From Anaerolineae bacterium (GTDB lineage: Bacteria; Chloroflexota; Anaerolineae; Aggregatilineales; Phototrophicaceae), in NCBI GenBank assembly GCA_030950085.1, contig JAUZRW010000042.1, positions 1-64,000 of the forward strand: a DNA stretch of 64,000 nucleotides, written 5' to 3'. The translations under genes and the position numbers were made by a program. A model generated the notes under the pieces. That model saw only the letters and a list, made by a program, of their open reading frames with translations, had not been told where the DNA came from and made no database searches. Positions 14,782 to 27,409 of the stretch are shown here, piece after piece. The first letter of the stretch is position 1; each line of letters opens with the position of its first letter.

Positions 14782-16068
14782 TTAGCCCGTTGCTGAGACA
14801 AATGAATAGGCATAACCATCGCTCCTATGCTGTGGTTGACAATACTTGTAACTGATACCTTGAATAGTTCCTTGTGCGGTCTTGATGTTGAAACTACCGG
14901 AAGCACGGACAGCCACACGCCCGACATATGTTCCAGTTTTTTTGCCATTGGCAACAATTGCTTTAACCATATCTCCCGTCTGAAAACCTTTCACGCGCTT
15001 AAATTGCTTTGCCTTCGTGCGCGGAAAACCGTACTTATCAACCCGACACATTTGCCGTGAGCTGCGTCCACTTGCAGAGATGATGAGTGGGGACAAGCCT
15101 AGATGAACAAAGACATGCTGACCACTTTTGCCCACGCAAACGGCATCCAACCAGTGTTTTTTCGGATAATCTTGTTGGTTACGATTGAATTTCGTTTGTC
15201 CACCTGTGCCTGTTTCAATCGGCAAACCTGTCAGTTCCATTTGGCGAAACAAAGCCCAGCGTGTCGCATTCATCGCGGCGGCATCTTTGAGGGGCTTCTT
15301 CGCTTGGGTTTGAATGTTGGGATAGCCAAATTCGGCAGCAGTACGATTACCTTTTTGCTGATTACAATCCGCACAAGCAAGAGTTAGGTTACTAATACGA
15401 TTACTACCGCCTCTGGATTTAGGGCGAATGTGTTCAACTTGTAAGGGGGCATGAACTGCCCCACAATAAGCACATTTGTGTCCCCATTTTTCCAGCAGAT
15501 ACTCGCGTACTTCGTAACCTTGCAATGTCCCTTGCTGGTATTCAATGCCACTAATCTCAGGATTTTCCATCTTCTGCGTATCGAAACGGGTCAGTTCCAT
15601 TGCTAAATTCGTAATTGGAACAAAGCGATTTAACCGTTTGAGCCATGTCCAGATATTGCGAACGCGACTTTTCAAAGACGGTGCAAGCCAGCCTTTCGGT
15701 CTGCGACGGTTCAAAAAGCGCGGTTTACGATAGCGTGTTTTACGACTTCTACGCCCTCTTCTTAACTGCCGACGTTTCAACAGAGCATCTCGGATTTGCT
15801 GTCCCCGATGTGTCAATTCAGCGACCCAGATAGCACGCAAGCCGCGTTTGAAGTTGGCAACTATCGCTATCCCTGTCGTCTTAGAACCGGGGTCGATCTT
15901 GACCTGTACAGCTTGTGTGTCTCCGCCTTCGCGGTCTTTTAAGATAATCGTGAAGGGATATTTACGGAACACGGCGGCTTTGCCTTGTTTTAGCAAGTGT
16001 CGCGCTCGCGCTGGATGACAAGGCATCAAGGGCTGCTTGTTCTTGTCGATAACTAAAACTCGTTGCAT
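14782..16068 (-). CDS. iscB: IscB RNA-guided HNH/RuvC nuclease
   Basis: A 428-residue IscB, the OMEGA-system nuclease that is ancestral to Cas9. Domains in order: PLMP domain (residues 1-50, KNKQPLMPCHPARAR), RuvC-I with Asp59 (KIDPGSKTTGIA), an arginine-rich bridge helix (about 98-136), RuvC-II with Glu158 (LAMELTRFD), HNH domain (about 190-245) with zinc cysteines 199/202 and 232/235 and catalytic His213 in VEHIRPKSRGG, RuvC-III with His305 and Asp308 (KKHWLDAV), and a C-terminal TAM-interacting region. All catalytic residues are intact and the length is normal, so both DNA strands should be cut. A structured omega-RNA lies directly upstream. No CRISPR array, cas1/cas2 or tnpA is nearby. 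Confidence 0.92.
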   Translation of the reverse strand: MQRVLVIDKNKQPLMPCHPARARHLLKQGKAAVFRKYPFTIILKDREGGDTQAVQVKIDPGSKTTGIAIVANFKRGLRAIWVAELTHRGQQIRDALLKRRQLRRGRRSRKTRYRKPRFLNRRRPKGWLAPSLKSRVRNIWTWLKRLNRFVPITNLAMELTRFDTQKMENPEISGIEYQQGTLQGYEVREYLLEKWGHKCAYCGAVHAPLQVEHIRPKSRGGSNRISNLTLACADCNQQKGNRTAAEFGYPNIQTQAKKPLKDAAAMNATRWALFRQMELTGLPIETGTGGQTKFNRNQQDYPKKHWLDAVCVGKSGQHVFVHLGLSPLIISASGRSSRQMCRVDKYGFPRTKAKQFKRVKGFQTGDMVKAIVANGKKTGTYVGRVAVRASGSFNIKTAQGTIQGISYKYCQPQHRSDGYAYSFVSATG

Positions 16069-16690: not shown

Positions 16691-17065
16691 CTAAAGGGGT
16701 TTTTTCTTCCCAATACGCTGAATTGCATCAATTAAGTTGCGAGGTGTAATCGGGACAGGGAGGTAGTCGGCGGCACCCTTTTCTATTGCAGATGAGCGTA
16801 GATGCTTACGACCACCGAGCAATATCACGGGTGTTTCGGGAAACTCAGCATGAATGTTTGCCATCAGTTGGAAGCCATCAATCGGTATCATTGCATAATC
16901 AATCAAGACAATATCGGGTGTCATCTCTTGGACGAGGAAAAGGACTCGTGAGCAAACGGTTGTCGCGGCAACCATTCTGATATCATCTGCCTTATCCAAA
17001 ATGGCATGATAATACTGCATCATGTGTGAGTCATCGTCGGCGACAAGTACGCTAATTTTAGACAC
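16691..17065 (-). CDS. Stand-alone receiver domain with altered switch residues
   Basis: A 124-residue CheY-like receiver. The acidic pocket ADDD (residues 9-12) and acceptor Asp56 in IVLIDYAM are kept, but the switch Ser/Thr position reads VILLGG (glycine) and the conserved Lys position reads YLPVPI (valine). Loss of the Lys normally uncouples phosphorylation from the conformational switch. GTG start with GAGGAT nine bases upstream, 14 bases after the stop of the ChbG/YdjC gene, so the two are likely co-transcribed and coupled. Confidence 0.8.
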   Translation of the reverse strand: MSKISVLVADDDSHMMQYYHAILDKADDIRMVAATTVCSRVLFLVQEMTPDIVLIDYAMIPIDGFQLMANIHAEFPETPVILLGGRKHLRSSAIEKGAADYLPVPITPRNLIDAIQRIGKKKPL

Positions 17066-17079
17066 GACTATTATTATCC

Positions 17080-17913
17080 TCAGATTGCTTGATTCAAAAC
17101 GCCAGATATATTGATAACTTCGATTTCGTGACCCATCTGTGGGGCGAGTAGGTCAAACACTTTTTCCAGATAAACGACTTCACGATGACGGGCTGCTGGG
17201 CTATAACTGGCATCATGTGGAAAGTGAATATCTTCTGGTGCAGATGGATGCACGACGATTTCAACAATCCCCTCTAACTTGAGAATATCATGCTGCATGA
17301 AGCTATGCGGAAATTCCAGATAGGCTTTCACGACAGTTAGATAATCTGGGATGAAAAAGTTGTGGGGTGTTTCGGCTATTTTGGATCTTGTATCTAGTAA
17401 GGGGTGCATCGGCACAAGCGAGGAACGAAAATCATGATTACGAACCCATTGCACATCATATTCTTCGGCAAGATGGTAAATAATATCCCGAATCGCTGGA
17501 AAGACATGAAAGTGCATATGGGTTGTGATGTGTGTCGGCGTTTGCCCGGCTAATGCGATAAAACGTTCAATCTGGCTGCGAAATTCAACTTCAATGGCAT
17601 TTTGCATTTTTGTGGATAAAAAGAGTGCCTGTGCATATAGAAACAATTTATTGCGAAAACGCCCCGATGACCGTACAAGGTCAGATTTTTGTGCTATTTC
17701 TGATAATGGCTCACCTTCAGTCAGATTTAGATGTATTCCTGTTTCAAGATTAGGCAAACGTCCGAAGTAATCGAAGCTGTGTCCGACATGGGGGTAATTC
17801 ATCATGATACTCGCTGTCGATACCATGCCCTTATCAAAAAGTGAGCCGGCTGCATGGTCGATGCCCTGTGATAAACCACAATCATCGGCTGTTATAATGA
17901 GTTTGATTGCCAT
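17080..17913 (-). CDS. ChbG/HpnK (YdjC-like) carbohydrate deacetylase
   Basis: A 277-residue YdjC-fold protein. This family removes N-acetyl groups from sugars (chitooligosaccharides for ChbG, a hopanoid-linked sugar for HpnK). Motifs seen: ITADDCGLSQGID with the catalytic/metal Asp pair at residues 9-10, GIHLNLTEG, and the metal-binding THMHFHVFP. Length is normal. No sugar-specific neighbours allow the substrate to be named; a degenerate receiver follows in the same operon. No clear ribosome binding site precedes the ATG. Confidence 0.85.
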   Translation of the reverse strand: MAIKLIITADDCGLSQGIDHAAGSLFDKGMVSTASIMMNYPHVGHSFDYFGRLPNLETGIHLNLTEGEPLSEIAQKSDLVRSSGRFRNKLFLYAQALFLSTKMQNAIEVEFRSQIERFIALAGQTPTHITTHMHFHVFPAIRDIIYHLAEEYDVQWVRNHDFRSSLVPMHPLLDTRSKIAETPHNFFIPDYLTVVKAYLEFPHSFMQHDILKLEGIVEIVVHPSAPEDIHFPHDASYSPAARHREVVYLEKVFDLLAPQMGHEIEVINISGVLNQAI

Positions 17914-18096: not shown

Positions 18097-18486
18097 TTAA
18101 CGGTTACGATGTTCACGATACACACGCCGAATGAGTGCCACAAGTTTATCGGGTTGGATGGGCATCAGGACAAATTCGGCTGCACCACTCTTGATAGCTC
18201 GTTGCTCGGAGTCACTATAGGCTGAATAGAGTATCACAAGCGTATCTGGAAAGTGAGATATGATATATTTTGTCGCTTCATCGCCAGACATTCCGGGCAT
18301 CAAAACATCCATAAAGACGACATCAGGGTCATGTTGTTCTACCAATTGAATAGCGCCATCACCATCAAGGGCATAACCCGGACAAGCTAACCCCGGAGCC
18401 ATATCAATGATGCGCTGCCATAATTCGCACATTGCACGCTGGTCATTGACCACCAATACCCGCAATAATGGTAATGTAGATGACAT
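18097..18486 (-). CDS. Stand-alone receiver domain lacking the conserved lysine
   Basis: A 129-residue receiver with acceptor Asp60 in VVFMDVLMPGMSG and switch Ser88 in LYSAYSD. The acidic pair reads Asn14-Asp15 instead of two acids, and the conserved Lys is replaced by Met108 (FVLMPI). It resembles the receiver at 16691 in both length and the loss of the lysine, so the two may be divergent paralogues. GAGGAG lies nine bases before the ATG. No output domain; probable partner is a kinase elsewhere. Confidence 0.8.
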   Translation of the reverse strand: MSSTLPLLRVLVVNDQRAMCELWQRIIDMAPGLACPGYALDGDGAIQLVEQHDPDVVFMDVLMPGMSGDEATKYIISHFPDTLVILYSAYSDSEQRAIKSGAAEFVLMPIQPDKLVALIRRVYREHRNR

Positions 18487-20278: not shown

Positions 20279-22147
20279 CTAATCGTCTAAATCAGCAACC
20301 AAATCAGACAAATCGCCAAACTCATCCAGAAAATCTGCCATTTCTGCTTTCAAATCTGCTAATTCAGGGTCAAGGATGACAGCTTTCTTGGTTTTGACAA
20401 CTTTATAGCATTTGATATGTTGGTATGCCTCTTTGGGGCGTGCTGGCTCAAGAATTTCTTCACATTCAAAATGGTCGCGCACTTGGTCATAGGTATATTC
20501 GCTGATAGCGACTTCTCCTGCGCCGGCTTGCTCTTGCAGATACTTACAAATATCCATCGCTTCGCCCAATGCAGAGAACTCTTTGCGGTCTTTACCGCCG
20601 ACATTGCCCAGCACGGCTGGTCCGGTATGGATGCCAATGCCAAAATGCACAATTTCGTTGCTCAGACCATCACTTTCCATGTTGAGGTGCATTCCGTTCA
20701 TATCATGCACAAGATGTAAAGCAGTTTGGACAGCACGAGCAGCATGGTCAGTTTGTGGGTTGAGTTGGGTATTGAACAAGCCCGTCACAGCATCGCCCAT
20801 ATACTTATCCACAATCCCTTCACCAAAGGTAATCGCATCACTGGCAAGGCTGAGATATTTATTGATGATACTCATCAACGCATCCGGTTCTAACTTTTCG
20901 CTAAAGGACGTAAAGCCACGAATATCAGCAAAGACGGCGGTGATTTCGCGCTCTTCACTGCCTACCGTATTAATATCGACCCCTTTGAGTGTATCCACTA
21001 AGGCAGGCGGCATATAACGGCGTGTCTCACGGATTTGCATTTCGCTCTTGCGTTGTTCCGTTAAATCTTCAATCACTAAAGCGACACCTTGCGTACCATT
21101 TTCGCCGCGTAAGGGGCTGGCAATCACCGCCCATGACCGTGAGGCATTATCAACTAGCAAGTCATCGTAATCTTTGCCGTGTTGTGTTTCCGTCGTGCGG
21201 ACAGTCTCTAGCATCGCATAGAAGCTATCGCCCATTGCTGGCAAGATATCCTTGAGCAACTGTCCCTCAATATCTTTTTGGTGCGTAATGCTTTCCGCCG
21301 TCTGATTGGCAACCAAAATTAAGCCATTTTCATCGACTGTGATAATGCCACTGGTGACTGAATCGAAGAGATTGCCCATGCGATTCTGAATTTCAGTGAC
21401 TTCTGCAAGGCGGTCACGCACGGACTCAAAGAGAGTCGCATTTTCGATAGCCACGACTGCTTGGTTAGCAAACGAAGTCAGTACACCTAATTCATGCTGT
21501 TTGAATAAGCCCGACATAATGCGGTTATCACAATAGACCACGCCAATCACTTGGTCATGCGACTTTAACGGCACAGCGAGGATGCTCCGTAATTTAAGAC
21601 CTGCCACACTCTCTTGTCTCTGATACCGTTCATCCATACTGGCGTTATCAGTGAGAATCGGTTCGCCACTATCAGCAACCATATTGACGATTGTGCGACT
21701 GACAATTACCCCCTCGCTGCTATCGAGAGAGGCAGCATCCATACCGCGTGCGACTTCTGGTTCGAGTATGCCCGTTTTGGGGTCTCTCAACATAATATAG
21801 CCGCGCTCTGCGCCCGTGAGTGAGATAACCGTATCCATCACCTGATTCAGCACATCATCCACATTTCGCTCGGAGTTGATGAGAGCCGACGTTTTGGCTA
21901 ATGCGCGCAATGAAACAAGTTCTTGTTGCGAATCTGCTACAGTGCGTGACAGTGTTTCTAAGCGTTTGCGGAGTGTGCGGAGGCTATCCATAGCACCTGT
22001 GGGCAGGTTGATACCCCGTTTACGCAAGGTATCACGTTGAATACGGAGCAAGCCCATAACATCGTTTAAGCGTTTTGACACATCGCGTAGTTGATTATCG
22101 TTGCTTTTAGCGCCAGATTCTGCATTGGGTTCTTGTTTGTCAACCAT
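20279..22147 (-). CDS. GAF-PAS class III nucleotidyl cyclase, metal-binding half (C1-like)
   Basis: A 622-residue cytoplasmic protein: coiled N-terminus (1-80), GAF (about 85-240), PAS (about 255-365), class III cyclase domain (about 395-590), acidic tail. The cyclase domain keeps both metal-binding aspartates, Asp408 (VFADIRGF) and Asp452 (KYMGDAV), but the transition-state pair is gone: Asn is replaced by Asp532 and Arg by Tyr536 (GEAMDICKYLQ). As a homodimer it should be inactive. Its start ATG at 22147 overlaps the stop of the preceding cyclase gene by eight bases, with GAGGTG as ribosome binding site; an upstream in-frame extension to 22231 is not needed. The partner gene keeps exactly the residues missing here. 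Confidence 0.9.
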   Translation of the reverse strand: MVDKQEPNAESGAKSNDNQLRDVSKRLNDVMGLLRIQRDTLRKRGINLPTGAMDSLRTLRKRLETLSRTVADSQQELVSLRALAKTSALINSERNVDDVLNQVMDTVISLTGAERGYIMLRDPKTGILEPEVARGMDAASLDSSEGVIVSRTIVNMVADSGEPILTDNASMDERYQRQESVAGLKLRSILAVPLKSHDQVIGVVYCDNRIMSGLFKQHELGVLTSFANQAVVAIENATLFESVRDRLAEVTEIQNRMGNLFDSVTSGIITVDENGLILVANQTAESITHQKDIEGQLLKDILPAMGDSFYAMLETVRTTETQHGKDYDDLLVDNASRSWAVIASPLRGENGTQGVALVIEDLTEQRKSEMQIRETRRYMPPALVDTLKGVDINTVGSEEREITAVFADIRGFTSFSEKLEPDALMSIINKYLSLASDAITFGEGIVDKYMGDAVTGLFNTQLNPQTDHAARAVQTALHLVHDMNGMHLNMESDGLSNEIVHFGIGIHTGPAVLGNVGGKDRKEFSALGEAMDICKYLQEQAGAGEVAISEYTYDQVRDHFECEEILEPARPKEAYQHIKCYKVVKTKKAVILDPELADLKAEMADFLDEFGDLSDLVADLDD

Positions 22148-23921
22148 TGTTTCTAAACACCTCATAGACCTGTGTGGCTTCTGATTTGCCCTTACCGAGA
22201 ATGGCGGGGCGTTCTTGAAAGCGATATGCACTTAAGTGTTCTTTTGTGTTGTTTTGGAATTGTTGCAATGTATCAATGCTGAGAATAATTTCGCCATATT
22301 TGGAATTTTCTTCCAAACGTTTCGATAAATTAATCGTATCGCCAATCGCTGTAAAATCGCGGCGATTCGGGCTACCGACATTGCCTAACGTCGCAACCCC
22401 CGTGTGCATCCCAATACGATAGAGAGGTTCATCAATATTCATATTGAGGTCAGTGTACATCTTTATAAAATTCTCGCGCATTCGTAGTGCCGCTTCCACT
22501 GCGAGGTAGGCATGGTCTTTCTGTGGATTCAATTGCGTATTCCAGATCGCCATAATCTCGTTACCCATGTATTTATCAATCACCCCTTGCGTATCATGGA
22601 TGCAACCTGTTACGACAGAAAGATAGGTATTGAGAATTTCCATAACTTCACGCGGGCGGACATTTTTCAATTTCTTCAAGGCATAGACTTCAACAAATAA
22701 GCAGGTGATTTCGCGTTTTTCGCCACCCCCCAATGATAATTGGCTGATATCGCCAATTTTATCGACTAATTCAGGCGGAAGATAGGTCTTCATAATGCGA
22801 AGTTGTTGCTCTCGTTCGCGCTTATCGGTAACATCATCTGCCACAACAGCGACTCCATCAGTCTGATTATCACTACCACGTAAGGGCGCGAGCTTAAAGG
22901 ATACGGCTCTGCTTGTGCCATCTTTGCGCGTCAGAATCGAATCAATCGTATCTTGGTCATCATGATGTTGGCGAATATGGGCAAGATGGTCTTTCAAATC
23001 AACCGCGATGCGTGGTAAGACATCCCGTAGCTGCTTACCTTCGACTTCTGTTGCCGGAACTTCAAGAATCGTTTCAGCAGCGCGATTAAAAGTCGTGATT
23101 TCATCTGCCGCATTGGTCGCAATCAAACCACTGCCAATCGAATCGAAGACATTATCCATCAATTGCTTAGTCTGCGTAATTTCATTTAATGCTCGTTGCA
23201 CTTCTTGGTACATCTGCGCGTTGGCTAGAGCAACAGCCGCCGTATTCGCAAAAGCCATCAAAGTATTTTTCTCGCGCTCCGTGAAGATACCCGCTTGCAA
23301 GCGATTATCGACATAAACTGCGCCGAGTGTCTCTTCTTTGAAGATAAGAGGAACACAGAGTACCGAACGCAAACTCAAATTAACAATACTGACATTGCCT
23401 TCAAAGCGGTCATCATTAGAGGCATTGTCTGTCAATATCGGCTCACGAGTTTCAATCACTTTTCGTAATACTGATTGGCTGATTTTGGGCGTAGTGCCAG
23501 ATTGTGCTTGACCCGGTTTGAGGGTGTTATCGCGGCTAAAACGAAAAATAAATTCATTTGTTGCTTCATCCAACGAAACGACATAGCCACGTTCGGCACG
23601 GGTGAGAGCAATCACCAAATCCATGGTTTCTTCAAGCACCTTTTGTACTTCTAAGGATGTCGTGATTTCAGCAGCCATATCTGCTAAAGCTCGTAACTGC
23701 CCTAATTCGGTTTGTTCTTCAACCAGTGCGGTTTCCAATTTGCCCAAATCAGAGCGCACAGCGGACAAAGCAGTTAAGACCATCGGCGGCAAGTTCAAGC
23801 CACGTTGTTCTAAAATTTTCTTCTGTGTTTTCAAAGATGCTGTCACTTGCTCAACCAGCGTTTTCGCTTGGCGTAACTCTTGGATTGTACCCGTGACAGG
23901 TGAAGTTGTAGGTTGTGACAT
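22140..23921 (-). CDS. GAF-PAS class III nucleotidyl cyclase, transition-state half (C2-like)
   Basis: A 593-residue protein with the same layout as its downstream neighbour: coiled N-terminus, GAF (about 80-240), PAS (about 255-365), class III cyclase (about 400-575). The two metal-binding aspartates are changed to Glu411 (CLFVEVYAL) and Asn454 (KYMGNEIM), while the purine-contacting Thr524 and the transition-state Asn531 and Arg535 (GDTINLSKRLE) are intact. This is the reverse of the defects in the next gene. Overlapping reading frames imply translational coupling and near-equal amounts, as suits a heterodimer. First gene of a two-gene operon. Confidence 0.9.
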   Translation of the reverse strand: MSQPTTSPVTGTIQELRQAKTLVEQVTASLKTQKKILEQRGLNLPPMVLTALSAVRSDLGKLETALVEEQTELGQLRALADMAAEITTSLEVQKVLEETMDLVIALTRAERGYVVSLDEATNEFIFRFSRDNTLKPGQAQSGTTPKISQSVLRKVIETREPILTDNASNDDRFEGNVSIVNLSLRSVLCVPLIFKEETLGAVYVDNRLQAGIFTEREKNTLMAFANTAAVALANAQMYQEVQRALNEITQTKQLMDNVFDSIGSGLIATNAADEITTFNRAAETILEVPATEVEGKQLRDVLPRIAVDLKDHLAHIRQHHDDQDTIDSILTRKDGTSRAVSFKLAPLRGSDNQTDGVAVVADDVTDKREREQQLRIMKTYLPPELVDKIGDISQLSLGGGEKREITCLFVEVYALKKLKNVRPREVMEILNTYLSVVTGCIHDTQGVIDKYMGNEIMAIWNTQLNPQKDHAYLAVEAALRMRENFIKMYTDLNMNIDEPLYRIGMHTGVATLGNVGSPNRRDFTAIGDTINLSKRLEENSKYGEIILSIDTLQQFQNNTKEHLSAYRFQERPAILGKGKSEATQVYEVFRNNG

Positions 23922-24661: not shown

Positions 24662-27409
24662 ATGTCGGAAAACAATTTACAACATGTCATTATCGGGCAA
24701 GCAATCGTTGCTGACCGAGTTACTGAGGCACTATCTGTTCTAGCCTTATCAGATAACCTGAGCGAAGAGAGTGTCGCTGCATTGCAACAAGCTGTGACAC
24801 TGACACCGCTTGCTGCTAACGGACAACGTGAATCACAAACGGTTGCTTTGGCAATGCTGACAAATGGAAAAGTGGTGGGCGATGCTAGTCGAGTGTATGT
24901 GCTGGCGCGCAGTCACTATCAAAAAAATGACCAAACGCAGGCAATTTATCAATATATACGCATCCCTTGTGCTATCTTGGATGATTTGGATGGCGATATT
25001 CAACCGCTACTGCGCCTCATTGATGAGCCAATACAACCCTATGCCGTGACTCATGCCCCACTAGAGCCACTCCCTTTGCCGACTCCGGTAACAAGTTCCC
25101 TTGCTGATGAGGTGACATTACTCAATACAACCTTGAATATGCTTGCTGATGGCGATATACAGCGTTTATTAGCCTTGTTAGGGGCAGCTTTAGATGGCAG
25201 CGTGATTATCTGTGGTTTTCCGAGCGAGAATACGCAGCGACTCATCTTGATACGTGGGTTAGCCTTACTGCTGCCGAAGATTGCACGGTCACATTTAACA
25301 TTTTCCAGCAATGATTCGCTGCTTGATGGACGCTTGCCACGCATTGTATTCAGTGATGTTGAGGGGGTATCAAATACGCGACGTTTTGATTGGAATCATA
25401 GCGACATTGACGCATCTCTGCTTGATAATGCTTATATCGCACATTTACAGAGTCTCTGGAACGATGATATTCAAGCATTTGTAACGGCGATAAAATCCTT
25501 AAGCGCCTTAGCTACTACCATCATGCCCGGATATTTGCTAATGGATGGTTTACAAGCTGTCACAGAACGGCATCAATATGATTTAGCCGTCGTGCAGCGC
25601 GAACCCATTGCAGCCGAAAACATCATGACTATCCTCGATGGCAATACACCGCCACAAGATGCCTTACGAGTGCAATATCTGGAACAGTTGCTACAACGTG
25701 CCTTAGATGACCGCAATACAGAGGCCGCACAGCGCGTTGCTCAAGAGATGGATGCTGACGCTGATTTGGATGCCCATTTAGACAATATGTTGGCAGATGC
25801 TCTCATAACCCAACCGGATGCTGTCTATGTTTTTACCCGTACTCGTTTGGCAGAGGGAAACGATAGTCGATGGCTACAATGGCTTCATGATGCGGCACAG
25901 CAATCACTAGATGTGGCTATCGAAAGTGGCGATGCGGATACGCTCTCTAGCTGGTTGAACCTGATTTCACGTGAACCGAGCCGTTATGAATTAGCCGATA
26001 TTTTGCGTTTAGGTATCCTTGCTGCACGCAAACGCGCCCCTGATAGTCCCAAATTGATACAAGATTTATTAGTCATGTCTGTCAAGCGGCAACCAGACAC
26101 GCTATCAACGCTGCTTCATGACCCACAAGTGATGAGCCTCTTGCCAGAAGAGATGCTTAATGCCATTGAACGCTTTGATAGCAGCGCGATTGACAAGCTC
26201 TTCACCGAATCACGCGAATTGTTTTTGCTGGCAATTAAACGTGCGATTGACGAAGGGGAACTTTGCATCACAAACAGTATTATTCGCAATTTGTGGGATA
26301 TTTATACACAACCGCAGGCTATCACCCTCGCGCCTGATTTCCGCCCATTGGCATTGTTGCGGCGCATTGCAAAAAACACCGATATCTTGGTCAATGGGGC
26401 TTTGGAAACATTGCTCACATTGATTCTCGCTAATAGCCATGATGACCTCTTTTTCGAGATTACACCGCATTTAGCACGACAAGGTGTGCTATCCGGCGTG
26501 ATGGCAAGCAGTCTACAACAGAGTGGGCGTGAATTGCCTGAATTAATCACTATCATTAATCAATTGACAAGCCGTGAAATACTTGAGGCTCAAGATGCCG
26601 TATCAATTTATGCCGACTTATTGACCTACTTCGATTCACCGCAAGCTATGATGCCATTGGTCGAGCAAGTGGCACGGGTTTTGGTGCAGCATCCCGAAAC
26701 AACTGCGTCGATTAATATCATGTGGAAAATCGCAGAGTATTCCGGCGAAATGAAAAGTGAATCGATGATGAGAGTCGCTATGCGGCGCTTGCTTCATGAT
26801 ATCGAGCAGATGGTATCCCAAAATCAAGTGGTGGAGAACATTCAACGGCTGCGGCAGGCTATCATTTGGAGTGCAACAGGACGCACTATGCTGATTCGTT
26901 GGTGGCGACAACATACCCGTAGCTTGGGCTTAGGACAACTCCAGAAACTTGATAAGGCATTAGAGGGCAAACGCCCCCTAGAAGATTTACGCGCTGTCGT
27001 ACAAACCAGTGTCGCACTACGACGAGTCATCGGTCAGCGCACACTGGAAGAATTTGCAAGCGATATTCATGTTACTTTCACGATTTTGCAAGCCCTCTCC
27101 GAAAGTTTTGACCCCGATGGGAAAGTCAATATCCATATTGATAGTGCGACCATGCGCGGTGAGTTAGAGGCACGTGAGGATGAATTACCCACAGAAATGC
27201 GCCAAGTGCTGGCAACCAATCTTAAAGAGTTGGCACAGTTGATTACGACCTTATCAGATAACCGTAGCAAACCCTCTATTATTCGCAGAGATGAGGCGGT
27301 TGAGCGTCAACTTTCGACAGGAGAAGCCCAACCGCATAGTGCGATTGATGTCATGCGTTGGTTATCGGGCTATTTGGTTGGTGTGCAAAAAAATGATGAT
27401 ACAGATTGA
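24662..27409 (+). CDS. Large uncharacterised cytoplasmic protein (possible GAP1-like)
   Basis: A 915-residue protein without signal peptide or membrane segments. The first 130 residues (HVIIGQAIV, then YVLARSHYQKNDQTQAIYQY and LLRLIDEP) recall the N-terminal domain of GTPase-associated protein 1 (GAP1), in which an Arg-x-Tyr/Asp-rich motif precedes a variable lid; residues about 140-300 contain a P-loop-free alpha/beta segment (GSVIICGFPSENTQRLILIR). The remaining 600 residues look like an all-helical solenoid. The GAP1 resemblance is weak and by eye only. AGGAAG lies seven bases before the ATG. The gene is alone and ends one base before the convergent ABC-F gene. Confidence 0.6.
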   Translation: MSENNLQHVIIGQAIVADRVTEALSVLALSDNLSEESVAALQQAVTLTPLAANGQRESQTVALAMLTNGKVVGDASRVYVLARSHYQKNDQTQAIYQYIRIPCAILDDLDGDIQPLLRLIDEPIQPYAVTHAPLEPLPLPTPVTSSLADEVTLLNTTLNMLADGDIQRLLALLGAALDGSVIICGFPSENTQRLILIRGLALLLPKIARSHLTFSSNDSLLDGRLPRIVFSDVEGVSNTRRFDWNHSDIDASLLDNAYIAHLQSLWNDDIQAFVTAIKSLSALATTIMPGYLLMDGLQAVTERHQYDLAVVQREPIAAENIMTILDGNTPPQDALRVQYLEQLLQRALDDRNTEAAQRVAQEMDADADLDAHLDNMLADALITQPDAVYVFTRTRLAEGNDSRWLQWLHDAAQQSLDVAIESGDADTLSSWLNLISREPSRYELADILRLGILAARKRAPDSPKLIQDLLVMSVKRQPDTLSTLLHDPQVMSLLPEEMLNAIERFDSSAIDKLFTESRELFLLAIKRAIDEGELCITNSIIRNLWDIYTQPQAITLAPDFRPLALLRRIAKNTDILVNGALETLLTLILANSHDDLFFEITPHLARQGVLSGVMASSLQQSGRELPELITIINQLTSREILEAQDAVSIYADLLTYFDSPQAMMPLVEQVARVLVQHPETTASINIMWKIAEYSGEMKSESMMRVAMRRLLHDIEQMVSQNQVVENIQRLRQAIIWSATGRTMLIRWWRQHTRSLGLGQLQKLDKALEGKRPLEDLRAVVQTSVALRRVIGQRTLEEFASDIHVTFTILQALSESFDPDGKVNIHIDSATMRGELEAREDELPTEMRQVLATNLKELAQLITTLSDNRSKPSIIRRDEAVERQLSTGEAQPHSAIDVMRWLSGYLVGVQKNDDTD

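Follow-up and report, generated by a model that had tools for sequence, protein, structure and literature searches.

The window, a 64,000-nucleotide stretch of an Anaerolineae contig, contains two overlapping leftwards-transcribed genes, A and B, whose products probably form an obligate heterodimer, a class III nucleotide cyclase with one catalytic site and one dead pseudosite, a reading to which we assign a probability of about 0.86. The initial annotation of this DNA had proposed such a heterodimer as probable, and the proposal is supported by a mirror-image division of catalytic residues in 91 of 91 gene pairs, by the direction of residue change, by the short ATGA-type overlap of the genes in about half of the pairs, and by purifying selection on both cyclase domains.

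The gene pair and its products

Both proteins have a coil–GAF–PAS–class III cyclase layout, with the coordinates of genes, domains and catalytic residues given in Table 1. This layout, noted in the initial annotation, is borne out by Pfam matches to GAF, PAS and Guanylate_cyc in A and B (PF00211 being above cut-off in both) and by AlphaFold2 models with long helices N-terminal of the GAF domains. The eight-base gene overlap is likewise confirmed (ATGGTTGA), and depends on the start of B being taken as the ATG at 22147. The models have mean pLDDT values of 78.9 (A) and 77.9 (B); their low pTM values (0.46 and 0.38, respectively) reflect the loose placement of domains. In Foldseek searches the cyclase domains of both models match the solved class III cyclases CyaB, CyaC and Cya2 with target-normalised TM-scores of approximately 0.77–0.88, and both the class III fold and the PF00211 family match are thus present in each protein.

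The residue numbers reported earlier are exact in the translated sequences, with E411 and N454 replacing the metal-binding aspartates of A, where T524, N531 and R535 are retained, and with D408 and D452 retained in B, where D532 and Y536 replace the transition-state Asn and Arg. The named residues align (phmmer) to the catalytic positions of CyaC (1wc1), CyaB (3r5g) and Cya2 (2w01), so that the mapping of the substitutions to catalytic positions holds on sequence alignment to solved cyclases.

Table 1. Features of the A/B gene pair, in window coordinates; counts refer to orthologues.
Feature	Position	Strand	Remarks
Gene A	22140..23921	-	593 aa, coil-GAF-PAS-cyclase; C2-like (base + transition-state) half, lacks metal half
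Gene B	20279..22147	-	622 aa from ATG 22147, coil-GAF-PAS-cyclase; C1-like (metal/phosphate) half, lacks transition-state residues
A/B overlap	22140..22147	-	8 bases: B ATG + A TGA
A N-terminal helices, aa 8-88	23658..23900	-	AlphaFold2 model
A GAF domain, aa 92-232	23226..23648	-	PF01590
A PAS domain, aa 259-369	22815..23147	-	PF08448
A class III cyclase domain	22176..22718	-	PF00211
A Glu411, metal-Asp1 position	22689..22691	-	D 56, E 29, other 11 of 96
A Lys450, base-recognition Lys	22572..22574	-	96/96
A Asn454, metal-Asp2 position	22560..22562	-	Asp in 0/96
A Thr524, base-recognition position	22350..22352	-	T 92, S 4 of 96
A Asn531, transition-state Asn	22329..22331	-	96/96
A Arg535, transition-state Arg	22317..22319	-	96/96
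B N-terminal helices, aa 9-90	21878..22123	-	AlphaFold2 model
B GAF domain, aa 96-234	21446..21862	-	PF01590
B PAS domain, aa 257-361	21065..21379	-	PF00989
B class III cyclase domain	20456..20950	-	PF00211
B Asp408, metal-Asp1	20924..20926	-	96/96
B Asp452, metal-Asp2	20792..20794	-	95/95
B Asp532 at transition-state Asn position	20552..20554	-	Asn in 13/94
B Tyr536 at transition-state Arg position	20540..20542	-	Arg in 0/94

Elsewhere in the window, a 915-aa protein without a Pfam match is encoded upstream of the pair and is divergently transcribed (24662-27409, + strand). On the - strand are a gene for a 428-aa protein with RRXRR and HNH domains (14782-16068; PF14239, PF01844) that is IscB-like in outline, and genes for two single-domain response regulators (16691-17065 and 18097-18486) lying either side of a YdjC-like gene (17080-17913).

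Complementary catalytic residues in A and B

The active site of class III cyclases lies at the dimer interface, with the metals bound by one chain and with base recognition and the transition-state Asn and Arg provided by the other. Because of this location, an A/B dimer would have one complete site and the A/A and B/B dimers none. In all 91 complete tandem pairs, which come from one order of the Anaerolineae (Chloroflexota), A lacks Asp2 and carries Asn and Arg, and B carries both aspartates and lacks Arg; the complementary losses first seen in a single pair are thus conserved as a pair among orthologues. The set of two metal aspartates, base-recognition pair and transition-state Asn/Arg is complete for A and B jointly in 91/91 pairs and for neither alone, and no single chain of a pair has the full set, Asp2 being absent from A in 96/96 proteins and Arg from B in 94/94. 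In the residue alignment the metal and transition-state halves sit on separate chains, as in the C1/C2- or alpha/beta-type heterodimeric cyclases, and A has adenylyl-type base-recognition residues, with Lys in 96/96 and Thr in 92/96 (Ser in the other four). Since the mirror-image loss is kept in every pair, A and B probably work only together. The 91/91 conservation and the alignment to solved cyclases rule out chance or misalignment as the source of the pattern. Complete sites are present in 61 of 62 single-copy relatives, the exception being a distant protein of 747 aa in which G replaces R. The genome that carries this pair has five further cyclase domains, and each of them is complete.

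The lost positions vary in what replaces them. At the Asp2 position the 96 A proteins have N (53), T (26), S (14), or H, G or A (one each), and at the Asp1 position D, E, N, S, T, F, H and Y are all seen. Of the A proteins, 56/96 retain Asp at the Asp1 position, and of the B proteins 13/94 retain the transition-state Asn. The decay is therefore stepwise, and in some pairs Asp2 of A and Arg of B are the only residues lost.

The same division emerges from a blind test, in which columns at least 80% conserved in the single-copy relatives were scored as kept in only one paralogue. In the cyclase domain 25 of the 64 columns are of this one-paralogue type, versus 3 of 105 in the coil, GAF and PAS regions (Fisher p 1e-9), and the sensor regions of A and B are not in decay. 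Those kept by B alone include A407, D408, G411, F412, S416, E417, D452, A453 and G503, among others; those kept by A alone are R402 (Lys in this protein), M457, D528, N531, R535, Q544 (Glu in this protein) and E587. The B-only columns hold the metal and phosphate half and the A-only columns the transition-state half. A has mostly lost the phosphate-loop GF (G 0.05, F 0.35), and a newly conserved Glu (E455, 0.88) adjoins the lost Asp2, where it could in principle build an altered metal site.

We note that several residues are newly conserved in one paralogue, namely E455 (22557-22559) and T511 (22389-22391) in A, and E399 (20951-20953), S436 (20840-20842) and E545 (20513-20515) in B, all on the - strand. 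These residues may belong to the interface of the heterodimer or to the pseudosite.

The residue patterns also bear on two alternatives in which one chain is the enzyme and the other only its regulator. It is unlikely that B is an active homodimer without the canonical Asn and Arg, and A a dead pseudo-cyclase. Such a B has in its favor both metal aspartates, an intact DxxGF loop, and the retention of Asn (13/94) or the presence of Lys at the Arg position (8/94) in some members, and some class III enzymes do deviate at substrate-binding residues; but invariant Lys, Asn and Arg, and Thr or Ser, in 96/96 A proteins would be needless in a regulatory pseudoenzyme, and the Arg position of B, where L, F, Y, K, I, Q, W or S is found and 11 residue changes are counted over 30 rows, shows a pattern of relaxed constraint. 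The converse arrangement, with A an active homodimer whose metal site is remodelled through Glu411 and/or the new Glu455 and B the regulatory pseudo-cyclase, is highly improbable, as metal position 1 of A is variable and its phosphate-loop GF is lost, and the DD present in every copy of B with letters there would be superfluous in a pseudoenzyme, even though A retains the whole base and transition-state half and has gained E455 beside the lost Asp2.

Origin, distribution and selection

In a tree built without the catalytic columns, A and B each form one clade (support 100/99 and 100/98) and are sisters at 100/100; single-copy genes of family f2 lie next outside (81/91), with other single-copy genes further out. 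The tree shows that a single duplication gave rise to A and B, and that the single-copy genes outside them have complete sites. That the f2 genes reverted later from A or B is rejected, as is their grouping with either clade (AU p 0.0002 with A, 0.0005 with B). In a larger tree, the Asp2 loss in A and the Arg loss in B are one change each, and these changes are read as losses, not gains, because the single-copy outgroups have a complete site. Within the clades, Asp1 of A changed 8 times and the Thr position of B 9 times, which fits relaxed positions. As the sisters A and B have Chloroflexota single-copy genes immediately outside them, the tree, built from bacterial sequences, argues for a duplication independent of those behind mammalian transmembrane adenylyl cyclase (tmAC) and soluble guanylate cyclase (sGC).

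The tandem pair is present in nearly all of the 60 related genomes searched, and within the order 145 of 154 genomes have a match. Two copies are the rule in nearly every genome of each family, with the exception of f2, which has one copy in 9/9 genomes; other Anaerolineae orders and other Chloroflexota classes mostly have one copy or none. Among the best 80 of 485 loci in a scan of named genomes, nearly all are titled Anaerolineae or Chloroflexi, and the A–B pair, with A first, is found in all except those truncated by contig ends. Three loci stand apart: L213, titled Pleurocapsa minor, has a typical Chloroflexota pair and is probably a mislabelled or contaminated bin; at L089 (G047) the pair is split into several frames by assembly error or decay; and in one genome a third, more distant cyclase-like gene lies directly upstream of A–B (L205:2964-4820).

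The genes are closely linked, with a 4-base ATGA-type overlap in 44/93 pairs, a 1-base overlap in 15/93, and 83/93 junctions within 60 bases. No conserved operon or effector was found beside the pair, the commonest neighboring family adjoining at most some 23 of 133 loci, and the most frequent neighbor families seem to come mostly from closely related genomes; the pair stays together though its neighbors change. A natural A–B fusion in a single chain was not seen. The distances of A and B co-vary (Mantel r 0.96), although linkage alone would give the same.

Both genes are under purifying selection, with median dN/dS of 0.115 (A) and 0.142 (B) in the cyclase domains and approximately 0.1 in all four regions, estimates that are rough because dS is about 1.1. 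These values and the intact reading frames rule out pseudogenes. That A and B are both catalytically dead sensors, as a non-enzymatic regulatory pair or as decaying genes, would agree with the lack of essential residues in each chain alone, but is very improbable given retained residues that are near-invariant, dN/dS of about 0.1 in both cyclase domains, and losses exactly complementary in 91/91 pairs, whereas in dead proteins neither half should be spared.

Proposed mechanism and relation to known cyclases

The obligate heterodimer would have arisen by tandem duplication of a homodimeric GAF–PAS–cyclase gene, followed by loss of opposite active-site halves. At the A/B site, B would contribute the DxxGF loop that binds phosphate and both aspartates that bind the metals, and A the base-recognition Lys and Thr together with the transition-state Asn and Arg; the mirror site of the same dimer would have neither residue set and be a dead, possibly regulatory, pocket. 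Homodimers of A or B are predicted to be inactive, making output dependent on both chains, and the two distinct GAF–PAS sensors would gate that output, probably coupled via parallel coiled coils. The Lys and Thr of A, which we take to be CyaC-type base recognition, suggest ATP as substrate and cAMP as product. The genome has 14 matches to cNMP-binding domains, and these proteins could read cAMP. Dimerization, homodimer inactivity, the product and two-signal integration are all what we infer from sequence. A more ambitious version, in which this is an independently evolved bacterial split-site cyclase that keeps its pseudosite as an allosteric pocket, as with the forskolin site in animals, and joins two GAF–PAS sensors at one site, is tentative, and we rate it at a little under even odds.

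The predicted organization is reminiscent of tmAC, in which C1 provides the metal aspartates and C2 the base recognition and the Asn and Arg, giving one active and one degenerate site; B would correspond to C1 and A to C2. In tmAC, however, a single membrane polypeptide contains both C1 and C2, whereas A and B are separate soluble bacterial proteins with GAF–PAS sensors. Alpha/beta sGC likewise has two separate homologous chains of sensor, coil and cyclase domains, although it is an animal enzyme with an NO/heme sensor that makes cGMP, whereas A and B lack H-NOX and A has the Lys and Thr typical of ATP recognition. The alpha chain of sGC has the metal pair D486 and D530 and sGC homodimers are inactive, an experimental precedent for inactive homodimers with such a residue division (PMC3591389). 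The chytrid rhodopsin guanylyl cyclases (including NeoR) are, as predicted for A/B, obligate heterodimers of two class III chains with two different sensors, but are fungal, with membrane rhodopsin sensors; RGC1 and RGC2 keep all catalytic residues, and the obligation thus lies elsewhere (PMC8815786).

The closest solved cyclase domains are those of the bacterial enzymes CyaC, P. aeruginosa CyaB, Cya2 and Anabaena CyaB1/2, which have the same fold and a similar sensor architecture. The single-copy relatives described here are of the same kind as these bacterial GAF/PAS-type adenylyl cyclases, which, unlike A and B, carry the full residue set in each chain and homodimerize. Reviews describe the class III cyclases of bacteria as homodimers whose chains participate equally in two equal sites (PMC9552081), and assign split-site heterodimers to higher eukaryotes (PMC8815786). 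No published bacterial split-site or heterodimeric class III cyclase was found in the literature searched, where subscription papers are thinly covered and absence is not proof; the earlier remark that tandem bacterial cyclases with this division of labor were not recognized as described agrees with this.

In a whole bacterial order this division of labor would thus have been invented separately, with intact single-copy relatives alongside, and these relatives make the route from homodimer to obligate heterodimer, by duplication and loss of opposite halves, testable by comparison. The pair is also a soluble two-gene system for asking why a pseudosite persists, and may offer synthetic biology a natural two-input cyclase.
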